A stretch of DNA of 64,000 bases from Gallionellales bacterium RIFCSPLOWO2_02_FULL_59_110 (GCA_001801215.1 MGXA01000091.1:1-64000); one strand, 5' to 3'. Shown: positions 32,724-52,489, numbered from the stretch's first letter. Translations and numbers: made by a program. The notes: generated from the sequence alone by a model not told the origin.

Positions 32724-32744
32724 TCCCATGCCCGGCGATACTCC

Positions 32745-34045: not shown

Positions 34046-34063
34046 GCGTTGTCTTGACAACGC
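34046..34063. repeat. Perfect inverted repeat between the two propeller genes
   Basis: GCGTTGTC and GACAACGC flank a TT spacer, a perfect 8-bp dyad about 80 bases upstream of the second propeller start. No T-run follows. It could be an operator or simply a weak hairpin. Confidence 0.45.
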
Positions 34064-34141
34064 AGTATGCCGCTCCCGGATTTGCGCTATACCCTGCCGC
34101 CAGGAATCCATATTAAACCGTTTCAACAAGGACGCAACGCA

Positions 34142-35131: not shown

Positions 35132-35186
35132 AATTTTCAAGGTGCCGGGAATCGCTGGTCGCCCTGGCATCTGATGAGTGCGTAAA

Positions 35187-35705
35187 ATGAAGAAATCCTG
35201 GTGGGCGATAGGTTCACTTTTTTTTGCAATTGCTGCGGCAATTGGCGTATTGGCCATCCCCAACCCGTTGGGCGAACAGGTGCTGGCAGAAGCCAAGTAC
35301 AGGGGATACATCCCATACACCACGGACGATGCGGTTTCGCTCGCTTACAGCCGATGCACCACCTGTCACAACGCAGATAAAATGCTCAAATATTGCGCCC
35401 GATGCGGGCCTCCTTTTATCGTCACCGTCCATTCCATGAAAAAATATGTGGAATTGCTGAACCAGAAGGGCGGGCAATTCAAGCCATTCTCCGACGCTGA
35501 GGCGGTCGCGATCACACAGGCATGGAACGGCCTGGTCGGCAACTGGGAACCCGGGTGGGGCTTGAAAAACATCCACAAACTCTTGCAAGGCGATCAAGCA
35601 CTGATGCGCCTCGCGGAGACTCCATTGGAGAACAGGCCCATAGAAATGGCGCTGAAGAGCAAGAGCGCGCCGGGCGCCCACAAGGAAACGTTCACGCCGC
35701 AATAA
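35187..35705 (+). CDS. Membrane-anchored monohaem cytochrome c
   Basis: A 172-residue protein with an N-terminal anchor or uncleaved signal (about 5-24), a CTTCH haem site at 57-61 followed closely by an extra CARC, and a helical C-terminal domain of about 100 residues. It is the last gene of the plus-strand cytochrome b operon, so it may be the electron acceptor of that complex. Not a standard cytochrome c1; no family recognised beyond class I-type haem binding. Confidence 0.75.
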   Translation: MKKSWWAIGSLFFAIAAAIGVLAIPNPLGEQVLAEAKYRGYIPYTTDDAVSLAYSRCTTCHNADKMLKYCARCGPPFIVTVHSMKKYVELLNQKGGQFKPFSDAEAVAITQAWNGLVGNWEPGWGLKNIHKLLQGDQALMRLAETPLENRPIEMALKSKSAPGAHKETFTPQ

Positions 35706-36065: not shown

Positions 36066-36557
36066 TCACTTTGATTCTTTATCTTTGTATTTGCACTTGC
36101 AGATGCTGTCCCTGACATATTGAACAATCTGTTTTATCTCAGCGTCGGTAAAAGTATCCTTCCAGCCCGGCATTGCCTCGGAAAGCCCGGCCGAGACCCC
36201 GCCGTGTTTGACGACCTTGAAAAGAAACTCGTCTGTTCTTGCCGATAACAGTCTGGTATCGCTCAATTGGCGTGGGATCACCCCTTCTCCGAGACTGCCC
36301 GAAAGAGGGCCATCGTTTTTTCCGGTCACTCCGTGGCACGGCGAACAATTTCCGATATAGTTGTCCTTGCCTGCCTCTCCGGTATAGGTTCCCGTATTGT
36401 CGGGGTCGAGCTCTATGTGAGAGCGGTTCCTTTCCTTACCCGGCAGCTCGTTCGAAAATCCCGCACCGGGAAAAAACATCATACTCAAACACAGCGCAAA
36501 GGGAACCGCCCCCGATAGAAAGATTTTCATTTTTTTCGTAATTCGACTATTCAACAT
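36066..36557 (-). CDS. Periplasmic monohaem cytochrome c with CKCK tail
   Basis: A 163-residue class I cytochrome c with signal peptide (hydrophobic about 12-34), CSPCH at 71-75, the sixth-ligand region EAMPGWKD and C-terminal helix VQYVRDS, ending in CKCK and a lysine-rich tail. The same CKCK ending occurs in the cytochrome at 50981, so the two appear paralogous. The start could be the internal ATG at 36530. It precedes the PPOX-like gene's 3' end by 31 bases on the same strand. Confidence 0.82.
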   Translation of the reverse strand: MLNSRITKKMKIFLSGAVPFALCLSMMFFPGAGFSNELPGKERNRSHIELDPDNTGTYTGEAGKDNYIGNCSPCHGVTGKNDGPLSGSLGEGVIPRQLSDTRLLSARTDEFLFKVVKHGGVSAGLSEAMPGWKDTFTDAEIKQIVQYVRDSICKCKYKDKESK

Positions 36558-38042: not shown

Positions 38043-38084
38043 CGCTATGCCGCCGGCTTGTGTTTTATTCTAACGGGCCGAATT

Positions 38085-40223
38085 TTACTTGTTTGATTTG
38101 AGTTGCGCCTTCATTTTTTCGAGCAAATCCCGGCCCAGCAGATCGCCGGGGTTTTCCCGTGCCGCAACGAAACTCCTGATGGTATCGAAGCGCTTGTCGG
38201 CTTCGGGATTGTCCTTGAGGCGCGGCACGCGATCGCGCGCAATCTCGTAGGCGTTGAAGCTCAATTCCTGCATCCCGAACCCCTTCATGCGCTGCACCGC
38301 ACGCATCATGGCGTTATTGCGGAAGCGCGTCAGGTCGGCGGAAGTGATACGCGCCAGCCCCTCCTTGCGTGCATTGAACTCGGCGGCCTTCTTGATGCCG
38401 GCGCGGTTGAAATCGGGCGCGGACAACACGCGCGCCAGCGCATCCTCGTCCCACTCCACACCGCCAGTCAATTGCGCGATGGCTGCCTCGACATCGGTCG
38501 ATTCCACGGTGGCCGCACGCCGTTTTCTGGTGAAGCTCTCTGCGGCGCCTTCCAGTGCGGGCGCTACGAACATGCGCACCTGGGGCGCCTTTTCGGCAAG
38601 GAACACCGTAAGCAACTGGTCGGATTCATCCGCCCACTTCAAACTGCGACCAGGCTGCTGTTCCGATTCCAGCCGATCCAGCAGCTTGATATTGACTTCC
38701 AGCCTGCCCTCGGAACGGGCGACATCCTCGGCGATCGCACGCACACCTTCCTGCAAAAAGGCGGGCATGGCCGCGAGGCGTTCGCGCGCCTGCTCGCTCC
38801 ACGGCAGCTCACCGTTTATATGAAACTCGCGTAGCGATTCGTTCGCCCCCTCTCCCGGGTGCCCTGCCAAAAGCTTTTCGGACTCCGGGGGAGGGTTGGG
38901 GTGAGGGACGCCGATAGCCTGCACGCCTGCTATTTGGTTTGCTTCCCCTCGTGTATTTGGTCTGGGTGGCCCGTCGCTGCCGAAACGTCTGGCGGACAAG
39001 ACCGCGAGATGCTCTTCCGTAACCGTATCCAGTCCCAGTTCCTGCACGTAACTTTCGGCGCGGCTCTTGACCATCTTGCGCAAAAAGGACGGAACCCGCG
39101 ACAGGCGCTTCTCCGCCTCCTCACTCCATGCCAGTTTCTTCGACTGCTCGGCCAGCGGTTCGATGACGGCAGCACCTTCCGGCACATGAACACACCATGG
39201 GTCGGTATCCATCAAGCTTTCGCCCATCGCGAGGGGCCGCGCACGGCAACCGCCGCACAACTTCCGGAATTCGCAACTGCCGCATTTGCCTTGCAACTTG
39301 GGTTTGCGCAGGGATTGGAAGGTGGGCGATTGATCCCAGATATCCCAGAATTTCTTGTCGCGGATGTTGCCGTCTTCATTGGGAATATAGGGACAAGCCG
39401 TAACGCCGCCCTCCGGTGTGACGCGGCAATAGTGTATGCCCGCGAGGCAACCGCCGCCTTCGTAGCCCGCGGCGCGGGTGAGCGTCGATGCAGGGTTGCG
39501 CTGATAGGCGATGCGCTTGTAATGGGGGGCGCAGCGCGCACGGATCAGCAAGTCCCGGCTCTGTTCCTGCGCCGCCACCAGTTGGTTGAGCACCCGCTCG
39601 TACGTGACGGGGCTGATATCCGACATGGATTCACCGCGACCGGTACACACCAGGAAGAACACGTTCAGCACTCGCGCCCCGGAAGCCCGGGCAAAATCTA
39701 TCATGCCCGGCACTTCGTCGGCATTGGATTCGGTGACGGAAAAATGGATCTGGAACGGCAAGCCGTGGCGCTTGCAGGCCTCGATACCCTGCATGGTTTT
39801 CTCCCACGCGCCCGGCAGGCCACGGAAGGCGTCGTGCTTTTCGGGGTCGAGAGAATCGACACTGATACCTGCGCCCATCGCACCGGTAGCCTTCAGCGAT
39901 TGCACGCGCTTATCGGTGAGCGCCACACCATTTGTCCCCACCACCATGGCAAGGCCAAGTCCGGCACCATGCGCCACCAGTTTTTCCAGGTCGCCACGCA
40001 GCATCGGCTCACCGCCGGTAAGCACCACCATGGTTTCCGTGCTGCGTGCCGCGATATCGTCCAGCAGGCTGCACACCTCTTCCGCCGTCAGTTCATTTCT
40101 ATCGCCATGCTTCATGGTTTCCGCATCCATGTAGCAATGGGCGCAGGCGAGGTTGCAACGGTTGGTCAGATTGATGGCGAGCAAAAACAGGCTGCTTGCA
40201 TCGCCGGTGCGAGATACCTCCAT
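38085..40223 (-). CDS. AhbD/NirJ-like radical SAM/SPASM protein with PCP_red-type repeats
   Basis: A 712-residue protein. The radical SAM cluster site is CNLACAHC (Cys 23, 27, 30) and a SPASM-type region follows with cysteines at 259, 266, 277, 314, 317, 323, 326 and 344 (GGCLAGIHYCRV, CGSCEFRKLCGGCRARP), matching the haem-pathway enzymes AhbD and NirJ. The C-terminal half carries four repeats resembling the C-terminal domain of light-independent protochlorophyllide reductase (about 366-413, 475-519, 530-585, 591-636; each starts with W-x-(D/E)-(E/Q)). Residues 438-462 come from an inserted repeat. The start overlaps the Usp stop (TAATG). Confidence 0.85.
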   Translation of the reverse strand: MEVSRTGDASSLFLLAINLTNRCNLACAHCYMDAETMKHGDRNELTAEEVCSLLDDIAARSTETMVVLTGGEPMLRGDLEKLVAHGAGLGLAMVVGTNGVALTDKRVQSLKATGAMGAGISVDSLDPEKHDAFRGLPGAWEKTMQGIEACKRHGLPFQIHFSVTESNADEVPGMIDFARASGARVLNVFFLVCTGRGESMSDISPVTYERVLNQLVAAQEQSRDLLIRARCAPHYKRIAYQRNPASTLTRAAGYEGGGCLAGIHYCRVTPEGGVTACPYIPNEDGNIRDKKFWDIWDQSPTFQSLRKPKLQGKCGSCEFRKLCGGCRARPLAMGESLMDTDPWCVHVPEGAAVIEPLAEQSKKLAWSEEAEKRLSRVPSFLRKMVKSRAESYVQELGLDTVTEEHLAVLSARRFGSDGPPRPNTRGEANQIAGVQAIGVPHPNPPPESEKLLAGHPGEGANESLREFHINGELPWSEQARERLAAMPAFLQEGVRAIAEDVARSEGRLEVNIKLLDRLESEQQPGRSLKWADESDQLLTVFLAEKAPQVRMFVAPALEGAAESFTRKRRAATVESTDVEAAIAQLTGGVEWDEDALARVLSAPDFNRAGIKKAAEFNARKEGLARITSADLTRFRNNAMMRAVQRMKGFGMQELSFNAYEIARDRVPRLKDNPEADKRFDTIRSFVAARENPGDLLGRDLLEKMKAQLKSNK
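38840..38911. repeat. REP-like element inserted in frame in the radical SAM gene
   Basis: A palindromic GC-rich segment with CCCCCTCTCCCGGG near one end and CCGGGGGAGGGTTGGGG near the other lies within coding sequence and encodes a stretch beginning VPHPNPPPESEK. Translated PHPNPLP-type segments are typical of dispersed intergenic repeats. The element sits between the first and second PCP_red-like repeats and keeps the reading frame open. Confidence 0.7.
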
Positions 40224-41995
40224 TATTGGCCCGCGTCTTGGGGGTTCTTTGCTTTTTTACCGAAACCAAACGGGCAACTGCCCTTGGCAGCCGGTGCGTT
40301 TTGCCCCTGCATGGTTTTTTCCATTTCGCCGCGTGCTAGTTTAAGGCCGTTTTCCGCCACCTCCAGGGTGATTTCGGTATGGCCATTTTGCCGTGCAAAA
40401 TTCTCGATGCTCTGCTTGCACCGCTCGCGCATGAAACCCTCCGGCACGCGCATCAGGCGCGCCAGCGCGGCGGCCTGCCAATGCAGTTCCGCCGCTACTG
40501 GCTGATCCAGTGTTTCCGCATCAATGAACGGCTTGATGTGCCGTGCTTCGACCACGGCAGATTTTTCCTGGCGGGCTTTTTTCTCGGCGCGCATGCTGAG
40601 GTTGCCGCGCACCGCAAGGTCTTCGATAGTGCGCAACAGCGCAACCGCGTCATCTGACCAGCGCATGACCTCATCCGCCGCAGGCTTGCGCTTCAATTCT
40701 CCCGCGTCGTAGGCCGCGACGATTTCCCCCATGGCCTGTTCCGCATGGTTGGGCATGAGTTGCGCGGTCGCTTCGTCCACAATTTTCCGGGTGATGACGG
40801 TGTGGCCATGCTCCTGGGCGTAGCGCATGATGGCCATGCGCGCCATGTTGCGGACGAAGGAAGGCACCCGCTCCATTCTGGCTTCGGCTTCATGGGTCCA
40901 TGAGGTGGTGACGCCGGACACAACGTCGATTTTGGGCTGATATTCGCGCATGCTGAGCAGAATTGCGCAGTCCGCGTTTTCAAGCAAATGCTCGCTATTG
41001 CCGCCGATATCGAGTTCGTCGTCGGCATGGATGCCCACCTTGCCGACAACCAGCAGCGACGGTTCGACTTTCCTGACATATTTTTCGATGGCATCGTGAG
41101 GTTTGCCATCCAACAGCTCGGTTTCTATTTCAACGCCGAAGTCTTCGGCAATGGAGTGTGCGACTGCCAGATGGCCGTCGTATATCTTTGCCAGCCCGGA
41201 ATCGATGATCTCCTCGTGCAGTTTTTCCTGCTCCTTGAATTTGAACACCTTGCCCGCCTCTTCGGACAGCACGCCCGCAATACGGTTAAATGCAACGTAA
41301 TGATAATAAGGGTCGAAGGCGGCAATCACCTTGACCGGAACCCGCCAACCTTCGGCTAGCGCCAACGCGGTGAGCAGACCTCCATAGGCTTTTGCCGAAC
41401 CATCCACCGCGACGACAATCGGGCCTTCCTTGATCGAGCGGGCTGTATTCTTGATGACCAGCGTATCGATAGCCGAGCGCCGCGCCGAACGCCTGCATAC
41501 GGTACCCAGCCGGCTTCCTTTTATTGCGCCAAGCCCCAAGGCCCCCATAACGAGCAAGTCGTATCTGCCAGAATTCGTTTCCCGCACGAGTTCGCGGTAA
41601 TTTTTACCTTCCAGCGAACTGCGTTTGAATTCGATACCGAGCCGGGCGCATTCATTTGCCGCCTGGTCCAAGTAGGAGTCGGTGATGATCGACAAGCCGC
41701 GGGTGATCAGATCGTCATGCACATCGCGCTGGCGCTCCAGTTCCTGCTCCTGCCGGAACTGTTCGGGCAAGCCCCCTTCCATCTGGCGGAAGCGCATGTC
41801 ATGCAGTTTGGCGGCATAAACATGGGAACCTGTGATCACGGGTGCATCCGCCATACATGCCAATTCCGCAGCATCCCGCATGGCGGCATTGGCATAATCC
41901 GATGAATCCAGCGCAACCAGAATGTTTCGATACAAGCGGGTGTTCTGCGATGTGTGGGACTCTCCGGCAACGGCCAAAGAAACTTGGGGCGTCAT
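40223..41995 (-). CDS. Tandem universal stress protein fused to three PCP_red-type domains
   Basis: A 590-residue cytoplasmic protein: UspA domain 1 (about 22-183; nucleotide loop GALGLGAIKGSRLG), UspA domain 2 (about 191-350), then three PCP_red-like repeats (366-413, 446-490, 506-555) of the kind found at the C-terminus of BchB/ChlB. The last 20 residues include SCPFGFGKK. The domain pairing with the adjacent radical SAM protein, which has four such repeats, suggests the two act together. The Usp part may bind ATP. Function unknown. Confidence 0.83.
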   Translation of the reverse strand: MTPQVSLAVAGESHTSQNTRLYRNILVALDSSDYANAAMRDAAELACMADAPVITGSHVYAAKLHDMRFRQMEGGLPEQFRQEQELERQRDVHDDLITRGLSIITDSYLDQAANECARLGIEFKRSSLEGKNYRELVRETNSGRYDLLVMGALGLGAIKGSRLGTVCRRSARRSAIDTLVIKNTARSIKEGPIVVAVDGSAKAYGGLLTALALAEGWRVPVKVIAAFDPYYHYVAFNRIAGVLSEEAGKVFKFKEQEKLHEEIIDSGLAKIYDGHLAVAHSIAEDFGVEIETELLDGKPHDAIEKYVRKVEPSLLVVGKVGIHADDELDIGGNSEHLLENADCAILLSMREYQPKIDVVSGVTTSWTHEAEARMERVPSFVRNMARMAIMRYAQEHGHTVITRKIVDEATAQLMPNHAEQAMGEIVAAYDAGELKRKPAADEVMRWSDDAVALLRTIEDLAVRGNLSMRAEKKARQEKSAVVEARHIKPFIDAETLDQPVAAELHWQAAALARLMRVPEGFMRERCKQSIENFARQNGHTEITLEVAENGLKLARGEMEKTMQGQNAPAAKGSCPFGFGKKAKNPQDAGQ

Positions 41996-42257: not shown

Positions 42258-43205
42258 TTAATTTTTAACCTTCAGCGTGACATTGCTCGCCTTATCCCTG
42301 TTGCCGCCCTCGACATATCCACCGCCGATCAGTTCAGCGCCGCCACGCCCTGCCAGTTCGGATTCCATCAACTCCTGGAGTTCCTTGAAGTCGGGGTGCG
42401 TTGCCGCATTGAGCGCATCGACGTCGCCCTTGATCGGCTTGAAGGTCGACTTGGGGTTAAGGTATTCCTCGACGGATTTCGGCGGTTTGACATCCTGCAT
42501 CGCGCGGATGAAGGCGACCACGTTCCAGATATCCTGATCCATCAGGACGTTGCCCCAGTTAGGCATCGAAGAGGAAAGCGCCAGGACTTCACCGCCGCCC
42601 TTGATTATCGCAAACAGCTCAAGATTGGTCTTCTTCTGCATGTAGTCGCCACGTGTCAACGTCCTTGGCCGCGGGTTCAGGTCGATGGCGCTGGGGCCAT
42701 CGCCGTGCATCATCCAGCCATGACAGGCGATGCAGTAGGAGTAATACCATGTCTTGCCCTGATTTGGATCGGCGCCTGCAACAAGCGTTGCGTCGAACTT
42801 GGGTGACCAGTTGTTTGTCCACTGGTCGTACAGGGCAGCCCCCTGAGCCGGATTTTTCACCCGATCCCACAATTCCGTCCTTGCGGAACCATCGTCGGCG
42901 CCATAGCCGCTGCTCGTTTTATAGGTCTTTGCATCGACTTTGGCGCGCTTGCCCACCCCGGTCAGGTAGTCGAACGGCGCAACACCGTAAGTGCTGCCCC
43001 CTTTGCCTGCGCCCATGTCGTTGGCTTCTTTCTCGAAGTTTTTCGCTGCCGCATTGAGATCCTTATCGCTTTGCGTCGGGCACTCCACCTTCACCCCGCC
43101 AGCCGTGCAACGTTTCTCTCCCGCCGCAAAAGCTGTCGAACTCCCCCACACCATACCTAGGCTTGCCATTGCTACCAGGTATATTTTCAAATTGTCTTTC
43201 TTCAT
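42258..43205 (-). CDS. Periplasmic monohaem cytochrome c, 315 residues
   Basis: Signal peptide (cleavage near AFA-AGE), a long N-terminal region with three extra cysteine-containing or low-complexity segments (KRCTAGGVKVEC), then a cytochrome c domain with CIACH at 158-162 and sixth-ligand region SSSMPNWGN (about 210). The C-terminal 80 residues are not haem-binding. It lies 74 bases downstream of the NosZ-like gene, as nos-linked cytochromes often do, and may deliver electrons to it. Confidence 0.82.
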   Translation of the reverse strand: MKKDNLKIYLVAMASLGMVWGSSTAFAAGEKRCTAGGVKVECPTQSDKDLNAAAKNFEKEANDMGAGKGGSTYGVAPFDYLTGVGKRAKVDAKTYKTSSGYGADDGSARTELWDRVKNPAQGAALYDQWTNNWSPKFDATLVAGADPNQGKTWYYSYCIACHGWMMHGDGPSAIDLNPRPRTLTRGDYMQKKTNLELFAIIKGGGEVLALSSSMPNWGNVLMDQDIWNVVAFIRAMQDVKPPKSVEEYLNPKSTFKPIKGDVDALNAATHPDFKELQELMESELAGRGGAELIGGGYVEGGNRDKASNVTLKVKN

Positions 43206-43224
43206 TTTTGATTCTCCCTTTAGT

Positions 43225-43241
43225 CTCCCCGCAAGGGGGAG
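43225..43241. repeat. CTCCCC/GGGGAG hairpin between NosZ-like and cytochrome genes
   Basis: CTCCCC (43225-43230) and GGGGAG (43236-43241) form a small hairpin of the same core sequence as the repeat beside tRNA-Pro. It may attenuate transcription between the two genes. Confidence 0.5.
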
Positions 43242-43279
43242 GGCCGGTTATTCATCTGTATCCATGAGCAAAGAGTAAA

Positions 43280-45046
43280 TTACAGCCCCTTCACGCGTTC
43301 CGCTACCGTGATCTGCCCCTCTTCCATCAGGCCAGGCAAATGCTGCGCTTCGGCATAGTCACCCACCGCGAGGTTGGAATTTCCCTTCTTGGGATCGTCA
43401 ACGAAGAAGGTCGCTCTCATTTCCAGGTGCAATGGGCCGCAGAAGTGCGTACAGAAAATTTCATATTCCCCGGCGATATCTGCGACAAACTCATGCACGG
43501 CGGTCACGCCGCGCGGAAGATCCATGTTGGTTCTCAAGCCATAAGGGCCGTAGACGGTCAAACCCATGGTGACGTCAGGATTCTTGGTGATACCTGCCGC
43601 CTTGTCGATATTGGTGGCAAACAACCTGACCTTGTCGCCCTTGTTCACCCTCACCTGGCGGGGAATGTAGCCGTAGCTGAAGGCTTTCATGTGAATTTCT
43701 TTGACGCCATTGACAACCTTGATGCCCGGCGGTGTATTGTCCTTCGGGATCACGTACCTCTTTGACTTCGCCCGGTGGACAGGGTCGAGAACTTCCGTCA
43801 TGCCCGCTTTCAGCAGGCCGCCTCTCTCTGCCTCGCCTCTGGTCCAATCCTTGATCAAGTAAGCCATGATGCTCTTGGCATTATGCGGCTCGCCATCCAC
43901 CGGCATGATCTTCAAAGTCTTGCCGTAGGTTGGGCTCTTTTCCCGCGCATCCCACATTTCGAAGTTGACCGGATACACGATACCCGTCGGGCTGAACAAT
44001 CCCGTCGAGAACTTGTTCAACGCCATCACATAGGAGTTGTCCGCAGAAATGGAAATATGGCCTGTTCTATAGTGTGTCGGGATTTCGTCGACCACTTCAA
44101 GTTTTTTCAGATCCACTTTCACGTTGGCATCCGCCACGAAACAGCTTTCGTAAGCGTACTTGGAAGTCAGGCCTTGCGCGCTGTCTATGCCTGGCCTGTA
44201 AGATCCGCCGTCCTTGTTATATACATCCATGACCGAATGCAGAGGTCCCGCGCAGGTCGGCAACACTTTCTTGACCGCCAGTTTTTCGGTATCGATGATG
44301 GACATGGTCGCCGAGAGCTTATCGCTCACCAGAACCATGGTGCCTTCCGGTATGACGTCGACGCCATGCGGGTTCTTGCCCACCGGTATCGACTTGACCA
44401 GCTTGAAAGGGTTGGTGGAAAACACGCCTACTGCCGAGTGGTAATAGTTGCCGGAGTAAATGTACTTGCCGTCCTTGCCCGCATCCAGATAGTCAGGCGC
44501 GCTCGGCGAGGGGCCCCAGTCGATCACCTCGGTTTTCCCCGAGGCGATATCTGTCTTGGACATCTTGCCGGAATATTCGCCTGTACCATACAAAGTCTTG
44601 CCATCAGCGCTCAGCGCGATATGGTGAACCCCGAACGGGAAAGGCAGAGCGATAACCCTTTCCATGTAACCTGTCTGCAAATTGAGTTCGCAGATCGTAT
44701 TGGCGCCCTTGTCGTTGACGTAGAGGTATTTGCCGTCCGGCGTTCCATTTTTGTTACCCGCCGGGCTGCCGCTAAAGACAACCTCATGCAAGTCAACGCC
44801 GCAATCGATGTGCCGGTAGGTTTTAAAACTGGGGATACCAATGATCGCCACCTTGCCGTCCACACCGCCGGACGAATATAGCAACATCGGATCCACGGTC
44901 GGATTATCCTTGGCATTCGAAGCATCTACCGCCGCATTCTGCCATCCCGGAGTGACCACCTTTTTTTCAGCGGCGTTGGCCGTTCCCAAAACCAAGCAGC
45001 TCGCCGAAAGAGCGCCCACCATTAAAAATTTAGTTTTGCTTTGCAT
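43280..45046 (-). CDS. Divergent nitrous-oxide-reductase-like (NosZ-like) copper protein
   Basis: A 588-residue exported protein with a Sec signal (cleavage near TANA-AE; no twin-arginine motif), a beta-propeller (about 50-400) and a C-terminal cupredoxin (about 445-550). CuZ-type histidines map to H87, H141/H142, H227 (NPHG), H270 (GPLH), H330 (TGH) and H388 (EPH); the position next to H87 is Glu88 where NosZ has a second His. CuA residues C532, C536, H540 and M543 are present, but the first CuA histidine aligns with Met494 (DVTMGL for DVTHGF) and the Trp position is His534. I start at MQSKTKFLM with SD GGGGAG. N2O reduction is therefore not assured. Confidence 0.8.
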   Translation of the reverse strand: MQSKTKFLMVGALSASCLVLGTANAAEKKVVTPGWQNAAVDASNAKDNPTVDPMLLYSSGGVDGKVAIIGIPSFKTYRHIDCGVDLHEVVFSGSPAGNKNGTPDGKYLYVNDKGANTICELNLQTGYMERVIALPFPFGVHHIALSADGKTLYGTGEYSGKMSKTDIASGKTEVIDWGPSPSAPDYLDAGKDGKYIYSGNYYHSAVGVFSTNPFKLVKSIPVGKNPHGVDVIPEGTMVLVSDKLSATMSIIDTEKLAVKKVLPTCAGPLHSVMDVYNKDGGSYRPGIDSAQGLTSKYAYESCFVADANVKVDLKKLEVVDEIPTHYRTGHISISADNSYVMALNKFSTGLFSPTGIVYPVNFEMWDAREKSPTYGKTLKIMPVDGEPHNAKSIMAYLIKDWTRGEAERGGLLKAGMTEVLDPVHRAKSKRYVIPKDNTPPGIKVVNGVKEIHMKAFSYGYIPRQVRVNKGDKVRLFATNIDKAAGITKNPDVTMGLTVYGPYGLRTNMDLPRGVTAVHEFVADIAGEYEIFCTHFCGPLHLEMRATFFVDDPKKGNSNLAVGDYAEAQHLPGLMEEGQITVAERVKGL

Positions 45047-45227
45047 TATTACTCCCCTTGTTCGCAACTGCTTAATTAATCGGGATAGCGCAATAATATT
45101 TACGCCGACATTCAACCCAGAACATTTACTTCGGTGCTACCTCTATTACATATTACTCAATACTGTGCTGCATCCTTCAAAAACCGCCCCAGTTCGCCAT
45201 AATTTGGTGGCTGCGGCATTTTGTCGC

Positions 45228-45256
45228 ATCATGCCCAAAATGAATACTATCGTCAA
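45228..45256 (-). promoter_or_regulatory. Possible promoter upstream of the NosZ-like gene
   Basis: TTGACG (45251-45256) and CATGAT (45228-45233) on the minus strand are 17 bases apart, about 180 bases before the start codon. The -10 matches consensus at four of six positions, so this is tentative. The rest of 45047-45443 is AT-rich without a gene. I see no FNR-type TTGAT-N4-ATCAA site. Confidence 0.3.
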
Positions 45257-45443
45257 GAGAGAGGTATTCAAAGAGTGCTGAAAAATTTCACGCCAATACG
45301 GGGAGGCCAAAACATGGTTAGATATAGCAGCGAAATCGGGGAAAACCGTGCCGGATCGGGGCGCTCACGGGAAACACCCTCTCCGATCCATAAGCGGCAT
45401 GTCGGGTAACGCCCCTACTCACCGGTATTCCTCGCACACCACG

Positions 45444-45695
45444 CTACTTCATACACTGTGCCCCACTGTTATCAGCCTGCACCTCCTGTCCGACAGGCGC
45501 CCGCTGGCCGTTGCGAACCGCGCCGATGGCGAACACAACAGCCCCGAAAACAATGAGCAGGAGAAACTCGTAAGCAGGCACGCCGCCGCGCAGGCTCAAC
45601 AAGCTGTCCAGAACGCCTAATGACATGATAATAAAACCAAATATCTTGGTTATCACACCCCGGCTGCTGTAATTTATTTCAGCTTCGGCTTCCAT
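45444..45695 (-). CDS. Small two-helix membrane protein, unknown
   Basis: An 83-residue protein beginning MEAEAEINYSSRG, with two hydrophobic segments (about 15-35 and 40-60) and a polar tail. It starts four bases after the stop of the dihaem/haem-b protein gene (TGACAGGATG), so it is translationally coupled to it. Probably a small subunit of the same membrane complex; not recognised as a family. Confidence 0.65.
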   Translation of the reverse strand: MEAEAEINYSSRGVITKIFGFIIMSLGVLDSLLSLRGGVPAYEFLLLIVFGAVVFAIGAVRNGQRAPVGQEVQADNSGAQCMK

Positions 45696-45699
45696 CCTG

Positions 45700-47238
45700 T
45701 CAATGCTGCCTGCCAGCGGCCCTGCCGGCGCTGCGCGCCCACCAGAGCAGGCCGCCCGCAAACAGCACCATAATTGCTAACGCCGCGACCAGCGGCCTGG
45801 AACCGGTTGCCGGTTTTAACAGCAACCAATACCAGGTGGTCATGGTGTGCTTCGAGCCTTTTTCGCTGTTATTGCTGCCATCCCAGGCAGCGAATGCAAC
45901 CGGAATAAACTTGCCCTCGGCGAACTGGATATCCTTGTCCGCCGCTTGGGTAGTGAGCGGGCGGTACATCAGCACCTTCCAGGTTCCGTCGCTATAACTC
46001 GAAACGGTCTTGAGGCCGACCGCTGCCGCATCGCGCTTCTCGATCGCTTTGAATCCGAGGCTGTTGAGAAGATTGGCCGCTTCCGGCTCGCTCTTCGTGC
46101 CGCTCTTCCAATGCCAGATATTCACCGGGTGCGACTCATCGCCCATGCCAAAATAAGGCTTGCGCATTTCCGTGGGAATCACGACCGGCAACTGCACGGC
46201 AACACCGTCTTCCGCAATGGGCTCATCGGCAATCTTCTCCGCGCTCTCATCTCCCGGGATGCTCTTGGTTCGATCATCCCATTCCATGAGTAGCGCAACC
46301 ATCTTGTCGTTGTACATGGCGCGCACGATGATGGTGTCATTGGACGGTTTGAAATAACGCTCCTCGCCGATTATCTGGGGAACCAGATAAAAGGCGGTCG
46401 GCACAGATTCATTCCAGCGCTTGTCATCCGTCGTAGCCGGCAATTCGCCTTCCACCTTATCCGCTTTAATGACCGTATTCTCGGCATTGACAGTCATGCC
46501 GGTCTTGGCCAAGGATTCCACATAGTTGGCCACATGCCAGCGCTCCTCAACCGAGAGTACATTTTTGCTCTTTGGGTCGGCGAACGATGGCATCTCCGTA
46601 CCGGCAATGCCGGTGGATATACGCGTATAAATATCTTTTGGATCGCTACTGCCAATGAAAGTCCATGGCTTGGTCAGGTTGCGCGGCCAGGTGCGCTCGC
46701 CGCCGCCCCCTTTGAGCCGCTTGCTGGCGCTGCCCTTGCCGCTCTTGCCATGGCATTCCACACAACGGTCGCCGTCTTCGAAAAGTTTTTTGCCCTTCTC
46801 GATGCTCTCTGCCGAACTTTTCACCTGCGTACCGTAATCGACCTGTTTTTCGGGCGGCTTATCGAAACCGGCGAAGGACTTGAGGTAAGCCGCCAGATCC
46901 CACATTTCCTGCTCGGAAAGCAGATCGCTCCAGCCCGGCATGGCGGTTCCCGGCATACCGTCGCGTATCATGCGGAAGATGTCATCGTCATTAGGCGTCA
47001 TATCTTCAAAACTGGAAGTTTTGATCTTGTAATTGCCGGACGTAAAGTCACGCGGCGGGGGATTAAGATAATCCTGAGCCGCGCCCGCGCCGTCGCCTTC
47101 GGCACCGTGACACCAGGTGCAACGCTTGTCGTAAACTTCCTTTCCCTTGTCGGCGTTGCCGGGTTTCGCCATCGCCGTTCCTGCCGCAAATAACGCAGAG
47201 CAGAGAGCGAGGAGCGCCAGTTTGTTTTTATAAGTCAT
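45700..47238 (-). CDS. Dihaem cytochrome c fused to haem-b (NxrC/EB_dh-like) domain, membrane-anchored
   Basis: A 512-residue exported protein: signal peptide (about 1-24), two cytochrome c domains with CTWCH (40-44) and CVECH (159-163), then an EB_dh-type domain (about 265-475) like the gamma subunits of type II DMSO-reductase-family enzymes (NxrC, ClrC, ethylbenzene dehydrogenase), which bind one haem b with Met/Lys ligands. A C-terminal membrane segment (about 480-500) anchors it. No molybdenum subunit is nearby, so it likely works as a stand-alone electron conduit in this cluster. Start chosen at MTYKNK with SD AGGA. Confidence 0.85.
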   Translation of the reverse strand: MTYKNKLALLALCSALFAAGTAMAKPGNADKGKEVYDKRCTWCHGAEGDGAGAAQDYLNPPPRDFTSGNYKIKTSSFEDMTPNDDDIFRMIRDGMPGTAMPGWSDLLSEQEMWDLAAYLKSFAGFDKPPEKQVDYGTQVKSSAESIEKGKKLFEDGDRCVECHGKSGKGSASKRLKGGGGERTWPRNLTKPWTFIGSSDPKDIYTRISTGIAGTEMPSFADPKSKNVLSVEERWHVANYVESLAKTGMTVNAENTVIKADKVEGELPATTDDKRWNESVPTAFYLVPQIIGEERYFKPSNDTIIVRAMYNDKMVALLMEWDDRTKSIPGDESAEKIADEPIAEDGVAVQLPVVIPTEMRKPYFGMGDESHPVNIWHWKSGTKSEPEAANLLNSLGFKAIEKRDAAAVGLKTVSSYSDGTWKVLMYRPLTTQAADKDIQFAEGKFIPVAFAAWDGSNNSEKGSKHTMTTWYWLLLKPATGSRPLVAALAIMVLFAGGLLWWARSAGRAAGRQH

Positions 47239-47257
47239 CTTTTTTCCTAAACGCAGA

Positions 47258-48043
47258 TTATTCATGTTCCCACGTCCTTGGCCTTCTGCCGGTATAGTCG
47301 TATAAGAACAGGATTACTTTCCATGTCTCGTCTTCCGTTATGAAATTTTCCCAGATAGGCATGGATGAAATCCACGGTGCAGCCTCATCGGGCAAGCCCG
47401 GGCCACCCGTTGCGATACGCCAGAACAGGAACGATTCCTGCAACTGCGCGATGGTGCCCACGTCCTGGAAATTGAGCGGTGTGGGATTCAAGCCAGGGGC
47501 GTAAGGCCCCTTGCCGTCCAGTTTATCGCCGTGGCAATACTGGCAGTTCTTGATATAGACGTCCCCGCCTTCTCTGACATGCTCCTTGAATTTCGCCGGG
47601 TCTTCCTTCTCGAATTTACGATAAGGGTTTTCCAGCTTGGTCAGGTCGAAACTCTTGCCATATGCCTTGAACTTGTTCGGCGGCGCGGGGTGGATGGTGC
47701 GCAATTCCGTCGGAGGATCGAAACTAGGCAGCATGCTCGAATAGGTGTAATACCCTGCCAGCAACGGCACAATAACGAACACCACATTCCGGATATTCCT
47801 CTTGGACGGGTCTTCGACCAACGCCTTGATAGGCGCAGTCAATTCCCGCGTGCCCTCTTCGGTAAAGGTGTACACCATCAACACCCCGGACACCACGAAC
47901 ACCATATACATGGTGAGCAGGCTCTTGGGAATCAGTTGCCCCAGCAGCACGTCGAAAACTAGGATAAAGCCGAAGTAAGTCCCGAATATTACCAGCGCCA
48001 TCTGCAACAACAGCGGGATGCGTCTTTTCTGTGTCGTATTCAT
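47258..48043 (-). CDS. Membrane-bound monohaem cytochrome c with three N-terminal helices
   Basis: A 261-residue protein with membrane segments at about 10-35, 41-60 and 85-104 and a C-terminal periplasmic cytochrome c domain with CQYCH at 167-171 and a sixth-ligand region SSMPIWENF. A distinctive proline-rich linker (FDPPTEL, HPAPPNKF) precedes the haem domain. It overlaps the upstream gene by one base and lies 19 bases from the next, so it is part of the CydA-like operon and probably a subunit of that complex. Confidence 0.83.
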   Translation of the reverse strand: MNTTQKRRIPLLLQMALVIFGTYFGFILVFDVLLGQLIPKSLLTMYMVFVVSGVLMVYTFTEEGTRELTAPIKALVEDPSKRNIRNVVFVIVPLLAGYYTYSSMLPSFDPPTELRTIHPAPPNKFKAYGKSFDLTKLENPYRKFEKEDPAKFKEHVREGGDVYIKNCQYCHGDKLDGKGPYAPGLNPTPLNFQDVGTIAQLQESFLFWRIATGGPGLPDEAAPWISSMPIWENFITEDETWKVILFLYDYTGRRPRTWEHE

Positions 48044-48597
48044 TATTCACATTCCTTGGATTTGGCTGATTCTGCGCCTTCTGCGGAGGCGTCCATCGTT
48101 GGAATTTGAACGGTCACTTCGCTGCCGCTCAAATCCTGGAGATAGGCGATGACAGCTGCAAGCTCAATCTTGGTCAGCCCGACACTGCTGCCAGTGGCAT
48201 CAGGCATGGGGCTTACGGTGTCATTGGTGCCCTTCTTGCCGAACCCCGGAACCACATAAACAGAAGGGCTCACCGATGACTCGTACAGGTATTCTTCGAC
48301 CGTTTTGGCCGTACCTTTGTATGCGGGGCTCTTCAGGGTTTTTTCGGCGTCCGCAACAGCCTTCTCCAGCATCGGCGCCCGTCCCATTTCGTTGTGGCAC
48401 AGCGTGCAGTCCCCTTTGCCGTCGAAAAGCTCCGCCCCGAGGGCGATGAATTTTTCCATGGTCATGCTGCCCAAATCCACCTTTGCCTCGACGGGCGGCG
48501 GTGCCGGCTTGATCTGCGGAATGCCAAAACTGGAATATCCCCAAAATGCACCCACCGTCAACAGACTGAAAATGCAAACCTTAATAAAATTGGTCAT
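48043..48597 (-). CDS. Membrane-anchored monohaem cytochrome c
   Basis: A 184-residue protein with one N-terminal membrane anchor (about 6-25), a proline-rich linker, a haem site CTLCH at 64-68, sixth-ligand candidate SPMPDA (about 140) and an acidic C-terminal tail. The ATG overlaps the CydA-like stop by four bases, which signals tight coupling and likely 1:1 assembly with that protein. Confidence 0.83.
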   Translation of the reverse strand: MTNFIKVCIFSLLTVGAFWGYSSFGIPQIKPAPPPVEAKVDLGSMTMEKFIALGAELFDGKGDCTLCHNEMGRAPMLEKAVADAEKTLKSPAYKGTAKTVEEYLYESSVSPSVYVVPGFGKKGTNDTVSPMPDATGSSVGLTKIELAAVIAYLQDLSGSEVTVQIPTMDASAEGAESAKSKECE

Positions 48598-50435
48598 GCC
48601 TGCTGCTCCTTCCAATAACCCTTGGAAACAACATGTTTACCGCTGACCGTACTCAGCCAGAATACAAAGATAACCATGGCCATGAATATGATCGTCCCGA
48701 TCGATACGATATTTGCCACGTAATCCAGACCGGGGGTAAAGGCATCGGGAGAGCCATCGCGGAACATGTTGTATACATGCCAGTGCTGTCGAATACCGGA
48801 GCGAACGTAACCCATCAGCCCCATCAGCCAGGTGAAAGACACAGCCAGCAGGAACAGCGCGTATTGCGAACGCGGCGGCATGCGTCCCCAGCGTAAAGGC
48901 GCCACATCTTTCGCGCCCTTGTACATCAAGGCGTCAATGATCACACTGACGATGATGATAACCAGCGTGGTCAATACCTGAGGTATGGAGGCCGCTATTT
49001 TGATCACCGTGTTGGTGAAATAACCGTGATAAACACCCAGTATCGTGATGTTGATCGAGCCCGCGACAAACAGGGCTACCTGCGCCGCATTGCCGACCTT
49101 CGCCCAGGATACGGTGACAAATTTATTGGAGCGCCGGTAGAACATGAAGCTCAGGTAAGTAAACAGGATCAGGAAGTTCACCGCAGTATTTTTCGCCGGC
49201 ATGATGCCCAGGACTCCGAGGTACTTGTGGTAGGGGCCGCCCAGATCCTTAAGTTCTGAATTGGTGAGCACCAAGGTATGCGGCGTGAACCATACCAGGA
49301 AAGAAACAACCAGCACGACGGCAATATATTTGATCCAATGGTTGTAGCGATGGGCGCCTTCGCTGCGCCCCATGCCGCACCACAGATAATAGTTGGCCGA
49401 CAGGAACAGCGCGCCGATCAGCACGGCCTGGATAATGAATATCCAGGCAAATACGCCGCCCATCAGGGTGATGCCCATCTGCTGGCTGTAGGCGTACATT
49501 TCGGCGGTGAGGTAATAACCGGCGAAGGGCAGCGGCAACAACGCGCCGATGGCAATAAAGTTGGCGTTGTAGCCCATCCAGTCATAGTGTGCGCGCTCTT
49601 CCTTGTTCTTGGCGCTGAGAAACTTGAATGCCGCATAGGCGCCCACGATCGAGCCGCCGTACGCAACGTTGGCGACTGTCCGGTGCAGGTTGATGGGGTT
49701 CCACAGGAAATTATGAATTGCGGCCCAGGTATCGCCGTTGAATACGCCCGCCGCATCCAAAGCAGCCGGACTCATCATGAAAGTTGTCCAGGCATTTGCC
49801 AGGAACATCAGCAGGAGGCCGAACGCATTGAGCAATAACCCAAGGGTCAGGTGCACCCATTTTTTGTTCCCGCCCTGCAACCAGTGCCAACCGTAATAGT
49901 AAATATACAGAACCGCACTCTCGGCGAAGAACAGCAGCGCGTACGCAAACATGCTCTCCTTGAAAATTAACGCCAGATACTGGAACAAATCCGGATAGAA
50001 CAGGATCAGGCAGAAGGACAACAAGCCTCCCAGCAGAGCGGTCAGCGAATAGGCGGTAATGGTGACCTTGATGAATTCATAGGCCATTTTGTCATAGCGC
50101 TGTTCACGGGTCGCCATGCCGATCGCCTCGATGATGAACACAAACATCGGCACCGCCACCACAAAAGCGCCGAACCAGAGGTGCAACTGGGCCACAAGCC
50201 ACACCACCACCCTGGCATTCACGCCCTTTATGGAGGGATAGTCCGCTTCGGTCAATTTCGGGGCTGGTGGGAAAATTGCCTTTGTGGCGGGCGCGGCAGC
50301 GTCCGGCACCGCTGTTGACGCGGTCGCGGCGGCCTCGGATGCATTCGCTGCAGGCATGAATGCGGACAGCATGAACATGGCAAAAACAGCCAGTAAAAAT
50401 GCCCCGCAGGTTATCCTTATATTCCGTGTTAGCAA
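48594..50435 (-). CDS. CydA-like (cytochrome bd subunit I-related) haem membrane protein
   Basis: A 613-residue polytopic protein. Aligned to CydA, the b595/high-spin ligand histidine corresponds to H85 (AQLHLWFGAF), the conserved FFLES glutamate to E172 (LFFAESAVL), and the b558 histidine to H251 (NLHRTVANVAYGG); LANAWTTFMMSP also matches. The quinol-binding Q-loop is not obvious. A 70-residue N-terminal extension with a signal-like helix is unusual. Start is TTG with GGAG six bases upstream. No CydB gene is present; instead several cytochromes c are linked, so electrons may come from cytochrome c rather than quinol. Confidence 0.82.
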   Translation of the reverse strand: MLTRNIRITCGAFLLAVFAMFMLSAFMPAANASEAAATASTAVPDAAAPATKAIFPPAPKLTEADYPSIKGVNARVVVWLVAQLHLWFGAFVVAVPMFVFIIEAIGMATREQRYDKMAYEFIKVTITAYSLTALLGGLLSFCLILFYPDLFQYLALIFKESMFAYALLFFAESAVLYIYYYGWHWLQGGNKKWVHLTLGLLLNAFGLLLMFLANAWTTFMMSPAALDAAGVFNGDTWAAIHNFLWNPINLHRTVANVAYGGSIVGAYAAFKFLSAKNKEERAHYDWMGYNANFIAIGALLPLPFAGYYLTAEMYAYSQQMGITLMGGVFAWIFIIQAVLIGALFLSANYYLWCGMGRSEGAHRYNHWIKYIAVVLVVSFLVWFTPHTLVLTNSELKDLGGPYHKYLGVLGIMPAKNTAVNFLILFTYLSFMFYRRSNKFVTVSWAKVGNAAQVALFVAGSINITILGVYHGYFTNTVIKIAASIPQVLTTLVIIIVSVIIDALMYKGAKDVAPLRWGRMPPRSQYALFLLAVSFTWLMGLMGYVRSGIRQHWHVYNMFRDGSPDAFTPGLDYVANIVSIGTIIFMAMVIFVFWLSTVSGKHVVSKGYWKEQQA

Positions 50436-50510
50436 GATCTACTCCTGATTTGTGCACACATGTGCGTTACCTTAAACGAAACCGCCTTCAAGGAAGTCGG
50501 CGACGAATCC

Positions 50511-50627
50511 TTAGGGGTGATATATCAGCGGCAACCCCTGAAGTTTCATCATGTAGAAATCCAGGGCAAAGAATACGATACCGAACACAATGAACGCGCC
50601 GATGAACGGCAATAGATAAGCTTTCAT
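50511..50627 (-). CDS. Tiny one-helix membrane protein (38 residues)
   Basis: An ATG at 50625-50627 opens MKAYLLPFIGAFIV, a single hydrophobic helix (about 3-25) followed by DFYMMKLQGLPLIYHP and TAA. It lies four bases after the next tiny gene and 75 bases before the CydA-like start. Small single-helix subunits such as CydX or CcoQ accompany many terminal oxidases, so a similar role is inferred. Confidence 0.65.
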   Translation of the reverse strand: MKAYLLPFIGAFIVFGIVFFALDFYMMKLQGLPLIYHP

Positions 50628-50631
50628 GTCG

Positions 50632-50757
50632 CTACGCCCCCAAGAACCACACAAAAAAAGCGATCACCGCACCCAGCACCGTAATAAAAAAAACCGGCCC
50701 AGCCCATGGATACTTCGTCACTCCGCATTCTTGTGTCTCACAATTATCAGCACTCAT
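50632..50757 (-). CDS. Tiny one-helix membrane protein (41 residues)
   Basis: MSADNCETQECGVTKYPWAG is followed by one hydrophobic helix (about 21-40) ending FFVWFLGA and TAG. Two cysteines lie in the short N-terminal part. It is four bases from the 38-residue gene and in the same direction, so both probably belong to the CydA-like complex. Not recognised. Confidence 0.65.
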   Translation of the reverse strand: MSADNCETQECGVTKYPWAGPVFFITVLGAVIAFFVWFLGA

Positions 50758-50807
50758 AGCTATCCTTTTCTCAGCGGCTTGCTTGCCCGCCGTATAACGC
50801 ACCCGTC

Positions 50808-50832
50808 AAAAAGGGGGATGATCTCCCCCTTT
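50808..50832 (-). terminator. Rho-independent terminator-like hairpin within the cluster
   Basis: Arms AAAGGGGGA (50810-50818) and TCCCCCTTT (50824-50832) pair perfectly around a 5-base loop, and on the minus strand a run of five T follows. It lies 20 bases after the stop of the 35-residue gene, so it should end or attenuate transcription between the soluble cytochromes and the CydA-like genes. Confidence 0.75.
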
Positions 50833-50851
50833 CGACTCCTGCACTGCCAAA

Positions 50852-50959
50852 CTAGAAGACGTAGTAATACAGAATCAGGCAACTGAAGATGACATTCACC
50901 ATCATCCCGGAAAAAATAAGACCGTCAGAAAGATATTTTTTGTTCAGGTATTTTTTCAT
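50852..50959 (-). CDS. Tiny one-helix membrane protein (35 residues)
   Basis: MKKYLNKKYLSDGLIFSG leads into one hydrophobic helix ending in an aromatic run (LILYYYVF) and TAG. It follows the cytochrome c gene at 50981 by about 20 bases. The basic N-terminus suggests N-in topology. Likely a small accessory subunit; not recognised. Confidence 0.6.
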   Translation of the reverse strand: MKKYLNKKYLSDGLIFSGMMVNVIFSCLILYYYVF

Positions 50960-50980
50960 TCCGGTCACCCGCCCCGTGCC

Positions 50981-51343
50981 TTATTGGGCCTTACACTTGC
51001 AAAGCTTGCGGATGTAGGCCAGTTGCCCATCCACTTCCGCCGCAGTTAAGGTTGCGCCCCAAGGCGGCATCAATGGTGATTTACTGATGGCAGGACCGCC
51101 ATCCCTGATTACCGCCTTGATATCTTCATCGGAGCGTTTTGCCATTTCAGCGGCGTTGGTAAAATCGCGCGGATCGGTGGAGAAATCCTTCGTGACGTTA
51201 ATGCCTTTGCCATCACCCTTAACTCCGTGGCACTGGGCACAATAAAAGTCGTACACCTCTTTCGGGTCGGCCGCCTGTGCCGAACCCGCCGCACCCAGAG
51301 CCAGACCAAGCGCCGTAGCGGTTACTATTACAAATCTTGACAT
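50981..51343 (-). CDS. Small periplasmic monohaem cytochrome c with CKCK tail
   Basis: A 120-residue class I cytochrome c: signal peptide (cleavage near AQA-AD), CAQCH at 35-39, GDGKG, sixth-ligand region PLMPPWG and a C-terminal helix ending in CKCKAQ. Paralogue of the cytochrome at 36066. It probably shuttles electrons within the island. Confidence 0.86.
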   Translation of the reverse strand: MSRFVIVTATALGLALGAAGSAQAADPKEVYDFYCAQCHGVKGDGKGINVTKDFSTDPRDFTNAAEMAKRSDEDIKAVIRDGGPAISKSPLMPPWGATLTAAEVDGQLAYIRKLCKCKAQ

Positions 51344-51369
51344 GAGTTTATCCCTCCGTTTGTTCGCAA

Positions 51370-52023
51370 TTACTCGAAAGCAGCCACGTACGCCGCTACG
51401 CTCTCCATATCCTTCGGATTAAGCGCGCCAGTGAAGTCCGGCATATCCCGAACCGGCTTGAACACCTTGGTTTTTGCCAAGAAGGCGTAAATCCAGTCAG
51501 GATTCAGCCTTTTGCTGGCTCCAACCAGGGAAGGCCCGCTCTTGCCACCGAGTACGACACCCTTCAAAGAGTATTCGTGGCATCCGCCGCACGGCATCTT
51601 CTTGGTAAAAGTATTCCGGCCCTGCACGTTATTATTGGCCTTGATCACTCCCGCCTTGACTTCCGGCGAGGTCAAACCCATAAGGAATTCCGTAACTGCA
51701 TCAGCGTCGCCGGCGGACATCTTGGGATGGTCGCCCGGATTCTTGTCGGTGAGCGAGTTATACTTCAACGGGCGGATCGGCTTGGGAGCCTGCAACCATG
51801 CAACAAGCCAGTCCTTCTGGAACTTGCTGCCGGCATACCAGAGTTCCGGGCCTTTTTTCGCCAGCTGATCCGCTATCGTCTTTTCCTTTGCTGGGCCATC
51901 GGTGTAATGGCAGCCGGCGCAGCTCTTCTTGAATATCGCATCCCCACCAGCAGCGTAGCTGGGCGCGGTCATTGTGACCAGCAAAGCCGCCCCAAGGGAA
52001 ACGGTGACTGCGAGCAATCTCAT
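51370..52023 (-). CDS. Periplasmic dihaem cytochrome c
   Basis: A 217-residue exported protein with CAGCH (35-39) and CGGCH (145-149), each in a small class I-like domain; WLQAPKPIRP and MPDFTGALNPKD include likely sixth-ligand regions. It is the first gene of the long minus-strand cytochrome run and lies about 325 bases downstream of a strong promoter. Confidence 0.86.
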   Translation of the reverse strand: MRLLAVTVSLGAALLVTMTAPSYAAGGDAIFKKSCAGCHYTDGPAKEKTIADQLAKKGPELWYAGSKFQKDWLVAWLQAPKPIRPLKYNSLTDKNPGDHPKMSAGDADAVTEFLMGLTSPEVKAGVIKANNNVQGRNTFTKKMPCGGCHEYSLKGVVLGGKSGPSLVGASKRLNPDWIYAFLAKTKVFKPVRDMPDFTGALNPKDMESVAAYVAAFE

Positions 52024-52489
52024 GTCATACTCCTTTCTTCTGTGTTTTACTTCTATGGAATTAATTCAAGGCACATCTAAAAACGCCGTCGCCCCGCCAA
52101 GAAGGGAACCCAGTACCGCACAGCCCGGCTTCCCGCCTTCGGCGGAGATAACAAAGATGAATTTATAGAGGCTCCCTTTATAAAGACTAACCGTACAAAT
52201 TATTATTGTTTTATTTATTATTATTTTATTTTGTTGCCCGCAGACCAACGGTACAACCTGCGGCCACTACACATTTTGCTTACGAGACCCTACAGTACCG
52301 TTATGCGGCACCCACGCGGCTCTGCCGTTCCTTTTAGATAGCGGACAGAAATATAGCACACCAACTTTTCTTGTCAACGCACATTGACGCCAAACTCGAT
52401 GCTCCTGGCTTCCGAGGCTGCTTTGCGTAACAGCCATTGGCACTGGCATGTCTATGCTTTCCCATGAAATCAAGCATATGGCGACCAAA
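52024..52489. other. Leader region of the cytochrome run
   Basis: This 466-base gap separates the dihaem cytochrome from the glycosyltransferase. It holds a strong minus-strand promoter (52350-52377), then a very AT-rich stretch (about 52195-52240) and a GC-rich imperfect palindrome (CCGCCTTCGGCGG, 52133-52145, minus strand). The transcript would have an untranslated leader of roughly 320 bases. I see no gene in it. Confidence 0.5.
52350..52377 (-). promoter_or_regulatory. Strong sigma70-type promoter of the cytochrome run
   Basis: Perfect TTGACA (52372-52377) and TATATT (52350-52355) on the minus strand with a 16-base spacer. It points at the dihaem cytochrome gene and, past the internal terminator, possibly at the CydA-like and NosZ-like genes. 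Confidence 0.75.

Follow-up and report, generated by a model that had tools for sequence, protein, structure and literature searches.

A bd-like/alternative-NxrC complex and a predicted clade III N2O reductase form separable, strongly associated modules in a Gallionellales genome

In the genome of Gallionellales bacterium RIFCSPLOWO2_02_FULL_59_110, a minus-strand run of genes codes for a CydA-like membrane haem protein, a series of c-type cytochromes and a NosZ-like copper protein. The run lies in a 64,000-nt stretch of DNA (GCA_001801215.1 MGXA01000091.1:1-64000), referred to as the window in the rest of the paper. Does it encode a single, undescribed respiratory complex, as the initial annotation of this DNA had proposed, or several systems lying side by side? 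Our analysis indicates that the region consists of two modules and not of a single complex: a bd-like complex (45444-52023) and a set of genes around L-NosZ, a predicted nitrous oxide (N2O) reductase. The two modules are separable yet strongly associated.

Every gene named in the initial annotation was present, in the order proposed, on the minus strand from 52023 to 42258 (Table 1), including the CydA-like gene, three genes for tiny membrane proteins, one for a small membrane protein and one fusing an EB_dh domain to c-haem motifs. The annotation had counted five further cytochromes c; we count six beside the CydA-like gene (dihC, monC, ctC, tmC, the EB_dh gene and cC42). The tight junctions that it listed proved exact: an ATGA overlap joins the CydA-like gene and ctC, a TAATG overlap joins ctC and tmC, and a TGACAGGATG junction joins the EB_dh gene and the small membrane gene. 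In addition, an 8-nt overlap joins tmC and the EB_dh gene. We found no cydB in the run or nearby, no nxrA- or nxrB-type gene (molybdopterin or Fe-S subunits) across the run from 24 to 55 kb, and no conserved gene in the interval 52066-52377. Between the small membrane gene (45444-45695) and the start of the L-NosZ gene at 45046 lie about 400 bp devoid of conserved genes, so a transcript shared with the bd-like module is not required. No terminator was found between these two genes, promoter matches were weak, and FNR-type boxes did not exceed chance expectation.

The CydA-like protein exceeded the Pfam cut-off for Cyt_bd_oxida_I (37.8 bits for a cut-off of 26.2), and the best PDB matches of its predicted structure in Foldseek (pLDDT, predicted local distance difference test, 76.5) were all CydA chains. 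By alignment, H85, H251 and E172 are the respective equivalents of H19, H186 and E107 of Escherichia coli CydA; they are kept in 35 of 35 CydA-like sequences save for one Lys at H85; the equivalence of H251 to H186 rests on the profile-search alignment with PDB CydA, the hhalign alignment being shifted by four residues there. The position of E. coli E99 is Tyr165 in all 35 sequences. Unlike canonical CydAB, with which it shares the CydA fold and these residue equivalents, the window protein has cytochrome c and EB_dh partners instead of CydB, and its alignment to canonical CydA stops ahead of the Q-loop. The bd-like set is present in a single copy in the window's genome, where a second CydA-like subunit was not found. 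The PDB relatives of the EB_dh protein are 6h5l_B ("conserved hypothetical cytochrome protein"), the gamma subunit of ethylbenzene dehydrogenase (EbdC) and NxrC, and the protein matches the description of alt_NxrC_2. The Met of its GMG motif is kept in most core-type EB_dh proteins, the paralogous set having Arg there and Desulfuromonadales His; no conserved Lys that could be the haem-b ligand was found in the aligned EB_dh proteins.

A cluster of this kind, bd-like_3/alt_NxrC_2, has been reported in Nitrospira, Nitrospina and anammox bacteria; in Nitrospira, bd-like_3 and bd-like_4 clusters with alt_NxrC_2 are duplicated, and they are reported to be kept in Nitrospina and anammox bacteria (PMC6606698, PMC3578206). 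The window shares with it a CydA-like protein without CydB, a pair of membrane cytochromes c and an anchored EB_dh protein bearing two c-haem motifs. The bd-like protein of the described complex retains its haem-b ligands and has membrane helices in place of the Q-loop; for the window protein the H19 and H186 equivalents are seen, in an alignment to CydA that breaks off before that loop. A locus of the anammox genus Scalindua (L117) has the same gene order, and alpha- and gammaproteobacterial loci carry a duplicated second set as in Nitrospira. In contrast, the window has a single set, no nxrAB nearby, extra tiny membrane proteins, dihC and monC at the front, and a pairing with L-NosZ. The lack of NxrA and NxrB beside the NxrC-like protein also sets the locus apart from nitrite oxidoreductase (NXR). 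TO_1 to TO_4 of 'Ca. Manganitrophus' (PMC9040806), compared here by description only, likewise group bd-like proteins with periplasmic cytochrome b or c proteins, but the available part of that description mentions no NosZ. On the basis of gene content and sequence similarity, we assign the window cluster to the same kind as bd-like_3/alt_NxrC_2, as a single-set variant, duplication being reported for Nitrospira and not shown to define the family. The notion of an undescribed complex was thus abandoned, as this set matches a known one and the NosZ-like protein is a clade III L-NosZ.

To what extent is the bd-like set conserved? A scan of about 85,000 species genomes yielded 121 relatives of the bd-like locus, the best 80 of which were retained as loci. 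The order dihC-monC-tinyA/B/C-CydA-ctC-tmC-EBdh-smTM was found in nearly all loci not cut by contig ends, and the core set was in order in about 70 of the 80, from four proteobacterial classes and Desulfuromonadales. Since the same order recurs in most of these loci from other genomes, it is not due to chance, and the co-occurrence that the initial annotation had suggested looking for was borne out for the bd-like set. CydA identity ranges from 67 to 86% across Beta-, Gamma-, Alpha- and Zetaproteobacteria and Desulfuromonadales; the Scalindua locus, with the same core order, has lower values (CydA 44%, ctC 32%, tmC 36%, EBdh 33%). Most alpha- and gammaproteobacterial loci have a second divergent set (CydA' ~43%) directly upstream and the accessory genes UspPCP-rSAM-HemG downstream. 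Within the Gallionella/Ferrigenium group, to which the window's genome belongs, 7 of the 37 genomes searched carry the bd-like complex and 3 carry L-NosZ. One Gallionella-group genome has a second divergent bd-like cluster (L018, G016:C36) with its own cytochromes and HemG, whose CydA-like protein (46%) has Lys at the H19-equivalent position, where the others have His. The bd-like core, judged by these comparisons, is of a known kind that is now seen to be widespread in Pseudomonadota.

All 34 genomes checked for canonical haem-copper oxidases (HCOs) had them, and 33 of these 34 carry the bd-like complex; the complex as sole terminal oxidase was therefore rejected. One locus (L120, G000:C48:1000-20000) codes for two cytochromes b and for a divergent NorB/HCO-like protein of 470 aa with a partner of 175 aa; it also holds genes for SCO1, haem O synthase and HCO subunits I (569 aa) and II. 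The product is possibly an unusual NO reductase or oxidase. Most betaproteobacterial genomes with the bd-like complex have comparable pairs of HCO-family genes.

The NosZ-like protein scored above the curated cut-off of NF052460, matched the full model (1-480) and has a propeller and a cupredoxin domain; we classify it as a clade III (lactonase-type) L-NosZ (He et al. 2025, Nature 646:152-160, as cited in PMC13122619), a predicted N2O reductase. Among the candidate copper ligands, most CuZ His residues and the CuA set Cys/Cys/His/Met are kept in the 20 L-NosZ sequences aligned. Three unusual positions are invariant in all 20: H92-E93 replaces the His-His pair of NosZ, its second His being Glu, Met499 occupies the position of CuA H583, and His539 that of W620. 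L-NosZ residues are numbered in a 593-residue frame (window 43280-45061); H583 and the other NosZ numbers follow the P. stutzeri enzyme and were transferred by alignment.

Further genes of the window, at 24179-35705 and beyond the interval initially annotated, code for cytochromes b and c, propellers and an ATP-binding cassette (ABC) transporter, which we assign to the L-NosZ set from conserved neighbourhoods in other classes. In four genomes (G124, G507, G085 and G508), propellers, cC42, c351 and the ABC transporter come after L-NosZ, and G124 and G507 also have the cytochrome b and the membrane cytochrome c. At least two of the associated genes were found in 5 of 18 L-NosZ loci, compared to 0 of 73 loci without L-NosZ. 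Identity to the set in L123, L140 and L141 is 50-65% for the ATPase, the permease and the first auxiliary protein, and 37% for the second auxiliary protein. A different neighbourhood was seen in two Gammaproteobacteria (L138 and L146), in which L-NosZ-cC42 lies amid thioredoxin/SCO-like proteins, a CPCEC-motif protein and a phosphonate-type ABC transporter.

L-NosZ lies close to the bd-like locus in 7 of the 80 loci; it is absent from the other 73, some of them ended by a contig edge, and it occurs without the complex in locus L119. For these reasons L-NosZ is a separable module and hence not a subunit of a single complex, and the idea of one undescribed complex that includes NosZ was rejected. 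The initial annotation had described a c-haem relay with a linked copper protein: the relay with the bd-like protein stands, as does the link to an N2O-reductase-like protein by co-occurrence, but NosZ as a subunit of the same complex does not.

The two modules nevertheless share genomes far more often than expected. In a background sample of 399 evenly drawn Pseudomonadota genomes, L-NosZ was present in 3, a bd-like gene in 4 and both in 3 (Fisher P = 3.8×10−5, window's own genome excluded). L-NosZ was found in 14 of 61 bd-like genomes compared to 0 of 395 sampled bd-like-negative genomes (P = 1.4×10−13), numbers that should be read knowing that the genomes are related, that the 61 were chosen by similarity to the window, that many are draft metagenome-assembled genomes (MAGs) and that the species tree was not controlled for. 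Clade I/II NosZ was not enriched with the bd-like gene (14/65 vs 58/396, P = 0.19), and L-NosZ and clade I/II NosZ did not occur together in any bd-like genome tested. With NirK patchy as well, a general link to denitrification was rejected. In the window's genus or family, three genomes (G005, G010 and G445) gave matches resembling non-clade-III NosZ, not L-NosZ.

The cytochrome gene dihC also connects the modules. It lies within the L-NosZ operon in two genomes; in one of them, a member of Desulfuromonadales (G085), the single dihC sits there, and the bd-like cluster, about 30 kb off on the same contig, is without it. Among 22 genomes tested, dihC was limited to those with the bd-like complex and was absent from G007, the genome of L119, and from ten complex-less Gallionella-group genomes. 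Distances between L-NosZ sequences correlate with those between CydA-like sequences in a comparison made without species-tree control (r = 0.86, 18 genomes, 0 of 2000 permutations), genes of one operon giving 0.88-0.92.

What would such a pair of modules do? The reading that we favour, and offer tentatively, is a respiratory island of two partner modules, the bd-like/alternative-NxrC complex and a clade III N2O reductase, with a cytochrome c pool in common and the bd-like step most likely at the quinone pool. Its gene content, conserved order, separability, specific co-occurrence and, in some genomes, dihC inside the L-NosZ operon are read from the sequence. The first module would be a periplasmic haem-c/haem-b relay (dihC, monC, ctC, tmC and the EB_dh protein) joined to the CydA-like protein without CydB, and the second would be L-NosZ together with the cytochrome b/c, propeller and ABC-transporter genes of its set; both would draw on a common pool of small periplasmic cytochromes c. 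Electrons from Fe(II) oxidation or from the cytochrome b complex would pass via cC42 to L-NosZ, which would use them to reduce N2O to N2. In the least certain step, the bd-like complex would exchange electrons between the cytochrome c pool and the membrane, there most likely with quinones, so that electrons could go uphill for biosynthesis or down to N2O. We favour quinone exchange because anammox bacteria, which are anaerobic, have the same complex, every genome tested has canonical oxidases, E99 is not retained, and the authors of the Nitrospira and Nitrospina studies proposed quinone contact or reverse electron flow for the bd-like/alt_NxrC_2 complex (PMC6606698, PMC3578206). With still more caution, we suggest that the OR-N/bd-like complex might be the dedicated membrane partner of the clade III N2O reductase in several lineages; with the small cytochromes common to both, the two would make up a new type of N2O respiratory chain, one able to couple Fe(II) oxidation to the reduction of N2O.

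Several points weigh against this proposal. About three quarters of the bd-like genomes lack L-NosZ, a figure inflated by gaps in MAGs, and G007 has L-NosZ in a genome that lacks the bd-like complex altogether, so neither module needs the other. The distance correlation, too, was made without controlling for the species tree. A quinone site was not identifiable in the CydA-like protein, whose alignment ends before the Q-loop, quinol residues are said to be absent from bd-like proteins (PMC3578206), and OR-N enzymes, a branch of the cytochrome bd superfamily, have been proposed to be cytochrome c-oxidising O2 reductases (PMC10839748, PMC12342949).

This last proposal leads to a less likely but serious alternative, in which cytochrome c drives high-affinity O2 reduction by the bd-like complex, an OR-N-type enzyme that would be either a second terminal branch or a scavenger shielding the oxygen-sensitive N2O reductase. 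Membership in the cytochrome bd superfamily by fold and sequence, the retention of H85, H251 and E172, the dedicated c-haem relay and the OR-N precedent all speak for it. However, E99 is replaced by Tyr in 35 of 35 sequences, canonical oxidases accompany the complex throughout (in all 33 bd-like genomes among the 34 tested), anammox bacteria, which are anaerobic, carry the same complex (L117), and the window's genome has no second CydA-like subunit, CydAA' pairs being proposed for OR-N1/N2. That the modules have only a genomic island and a habitat in common, with no functional partnership, is unlikely. Each is indeed found alone (L119; most alphaproteobacterial loci), and L-NosZ, some 400 bp away from the gene before it, comes with cytochrome b/c genes of its own; yet the association recurs in the Gallionella group, other Betaproteobacteria, Mariprofundus, Gamma- and Alphaproteobacteria and Desulfuromonadales, also unlinked on contigs, two genomes have dihC in the L-NosZ operon, and both modules share the UspPCP-rSAM-HemG genes. 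Action of the bd-like protein on an N-oxide, by NO reduction or NO/N2O handling, appears improbable: NirK is inconsistent among hosts, a NorB-like gene is often present too (bits 29-40 class), and no residue evidence points toward NO chemistry, even though this activity would explain why the hosts are N2O reducers, nitrite oxidisers, anammox bacteria and oxygen-minimum-zone bacteria, would fit the strong specific link to L-NosZ, and would suit the origin of many hosts in oxygen-minimum zones and groundwater (by record titles) and the presence of NosZ of some kind in about half of 66 genomes tested.

The accessory genes UspPCP-rSAM-HemG (36588-41995) come after L-NosZ-cC42 or, in alpha- and gammaproteobacterial loci, after the bd-like EB_dh gene, an arrangement met with in many lineages. 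Their products possibly make a modified haem or metal cofactor for either module.

Table 1. Features of the two modules and of the accessory genes in the window.
Feature	Coordinates	Strand	Evidence
dihC: dihaem periplasmic cytochrome c, SoxX-like second domain	51370-52023	-	two CxxCH, Pfam Cytochrome_CBB3
monC: small monohaem cytochrome c	50981-51343	-	Pfam Cytochrome_CBB3 44.5 bits; in order in ~68/80 loci
tiny single-span membrane protein A, 35 aa	50852-50959	-	kept in beta/zeta loci, mostly 58-88% identity
tiny single-span membrane protein B, 41 aa	50632-50757	-	
tiny single-span membrane protein C, 38 aa	50511-50627	-	seen in 62/80 loci
CydA-like (bd-like) membrane haem protein, no CydB	48594-50435	-	Pfam PF01654; PDB CydA chains by profile and fold
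ctC: monohaem cytochrome c, hydrophobic N-terminus	48043-48597	-	CxxCH; 73/80 loci
tmC: cytochrome c, three predicted membrane spans	47258-48043	-	mostly 65-85% identity across Pseudomonadota classes
dihaem c, EB_dh (NxrC-type haem-b) domain and C-terminal anchor	45700-47265	-	Pfam EB_dh 88.6 bits, Cytochrom_C 89.9 bits
small two-span membrane protein	45444-45695	-	42-72% identity in many loci
L-NosZ: predicted clade III lactonase-type N2O reductase	43280-45046	-	NCBIfam NF052460 770 bits, cut-off 700
cC42: monohaem cytochrome c	42258-43205	-	49-75% identity near L-NosZ in every L-NosZ locus examined
UspPCP: universal stress protein domains and PCP_red domains	40223-41995	-	Pfam
rSAM: radical SAM (S-adenosylmethionine)/SPASM protein, similar to haem-synthesis NirJ/AhbD, fused to PCP_red domains	38085-40223	-	NirJ2 307 bits, below cut-off 500
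HemG-type FAD amine-oxidase/protoporphyrinogen-oxidase-like protein	36588-38042	-	Pfam Amino_oxidase 180 bits
cytochrome c after accessory genes	36066-36557	-	also in L119
c351: cytochrome c	35178-35705	+	48-69% identity beside L-NosZ in five loci
two Vgb_lyase-type beta-propeller proteins	32745-33974, 34067-35131	+	Pfam; beside L-NosZ in L053, L123, L140, L141, L145
membrane cytochrome c	32043-32723	+	52-61% identity beside L-NosZ
second cytochrome b (petB-like)	31398-32021	+	Pfam 124 bits; 57% identity beside L-NosZ in L123, L140
cytochrome b (petB-like) with c-haem motif	29610-30797	+	Pfam Cytochrome_B 100.7 bits; adjoins L-NosZ-associated set
ABC ATPase (27500-28429), permease (26721-27500), Gld-type auxiliary proteins	24179-28429	-	kept after c351 in L123, L140, L141

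The bd-like complex and L-NosZ have each been described already. What is new is their partnership, the presence of L-NosZ in the Gallionella/Ferrigenium group and the wide spread of the bd-like complex. Our literature search found no paper linking the bd-like complex to L-NosZ; the founding L-NosZ paper was outside that search, and its authors may have noted the context. As a survey of 103 Gallionellaceae genomes reported no nosZ (PMC10734462), L-NosZ in this group appears to be new or to have been missed by standard annotation. Recognition of clade III N2O reductases is recent, and we found no electron donors for them in the literature; the bd-like/alt-NxrC complex has stood as a puzzle in nitrite oxidisers and in anammox bacteria from about 2010 onwards. 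The specific genomic link reported here gives each module a testable partner, and the two are probably partners in the consumption of the greenhouse gas N2O. Finding L-NosZ among Gallionella/Ferrigenium genomes also matters for the question of whether iron oxidisers act as sources or sinks of N2O.

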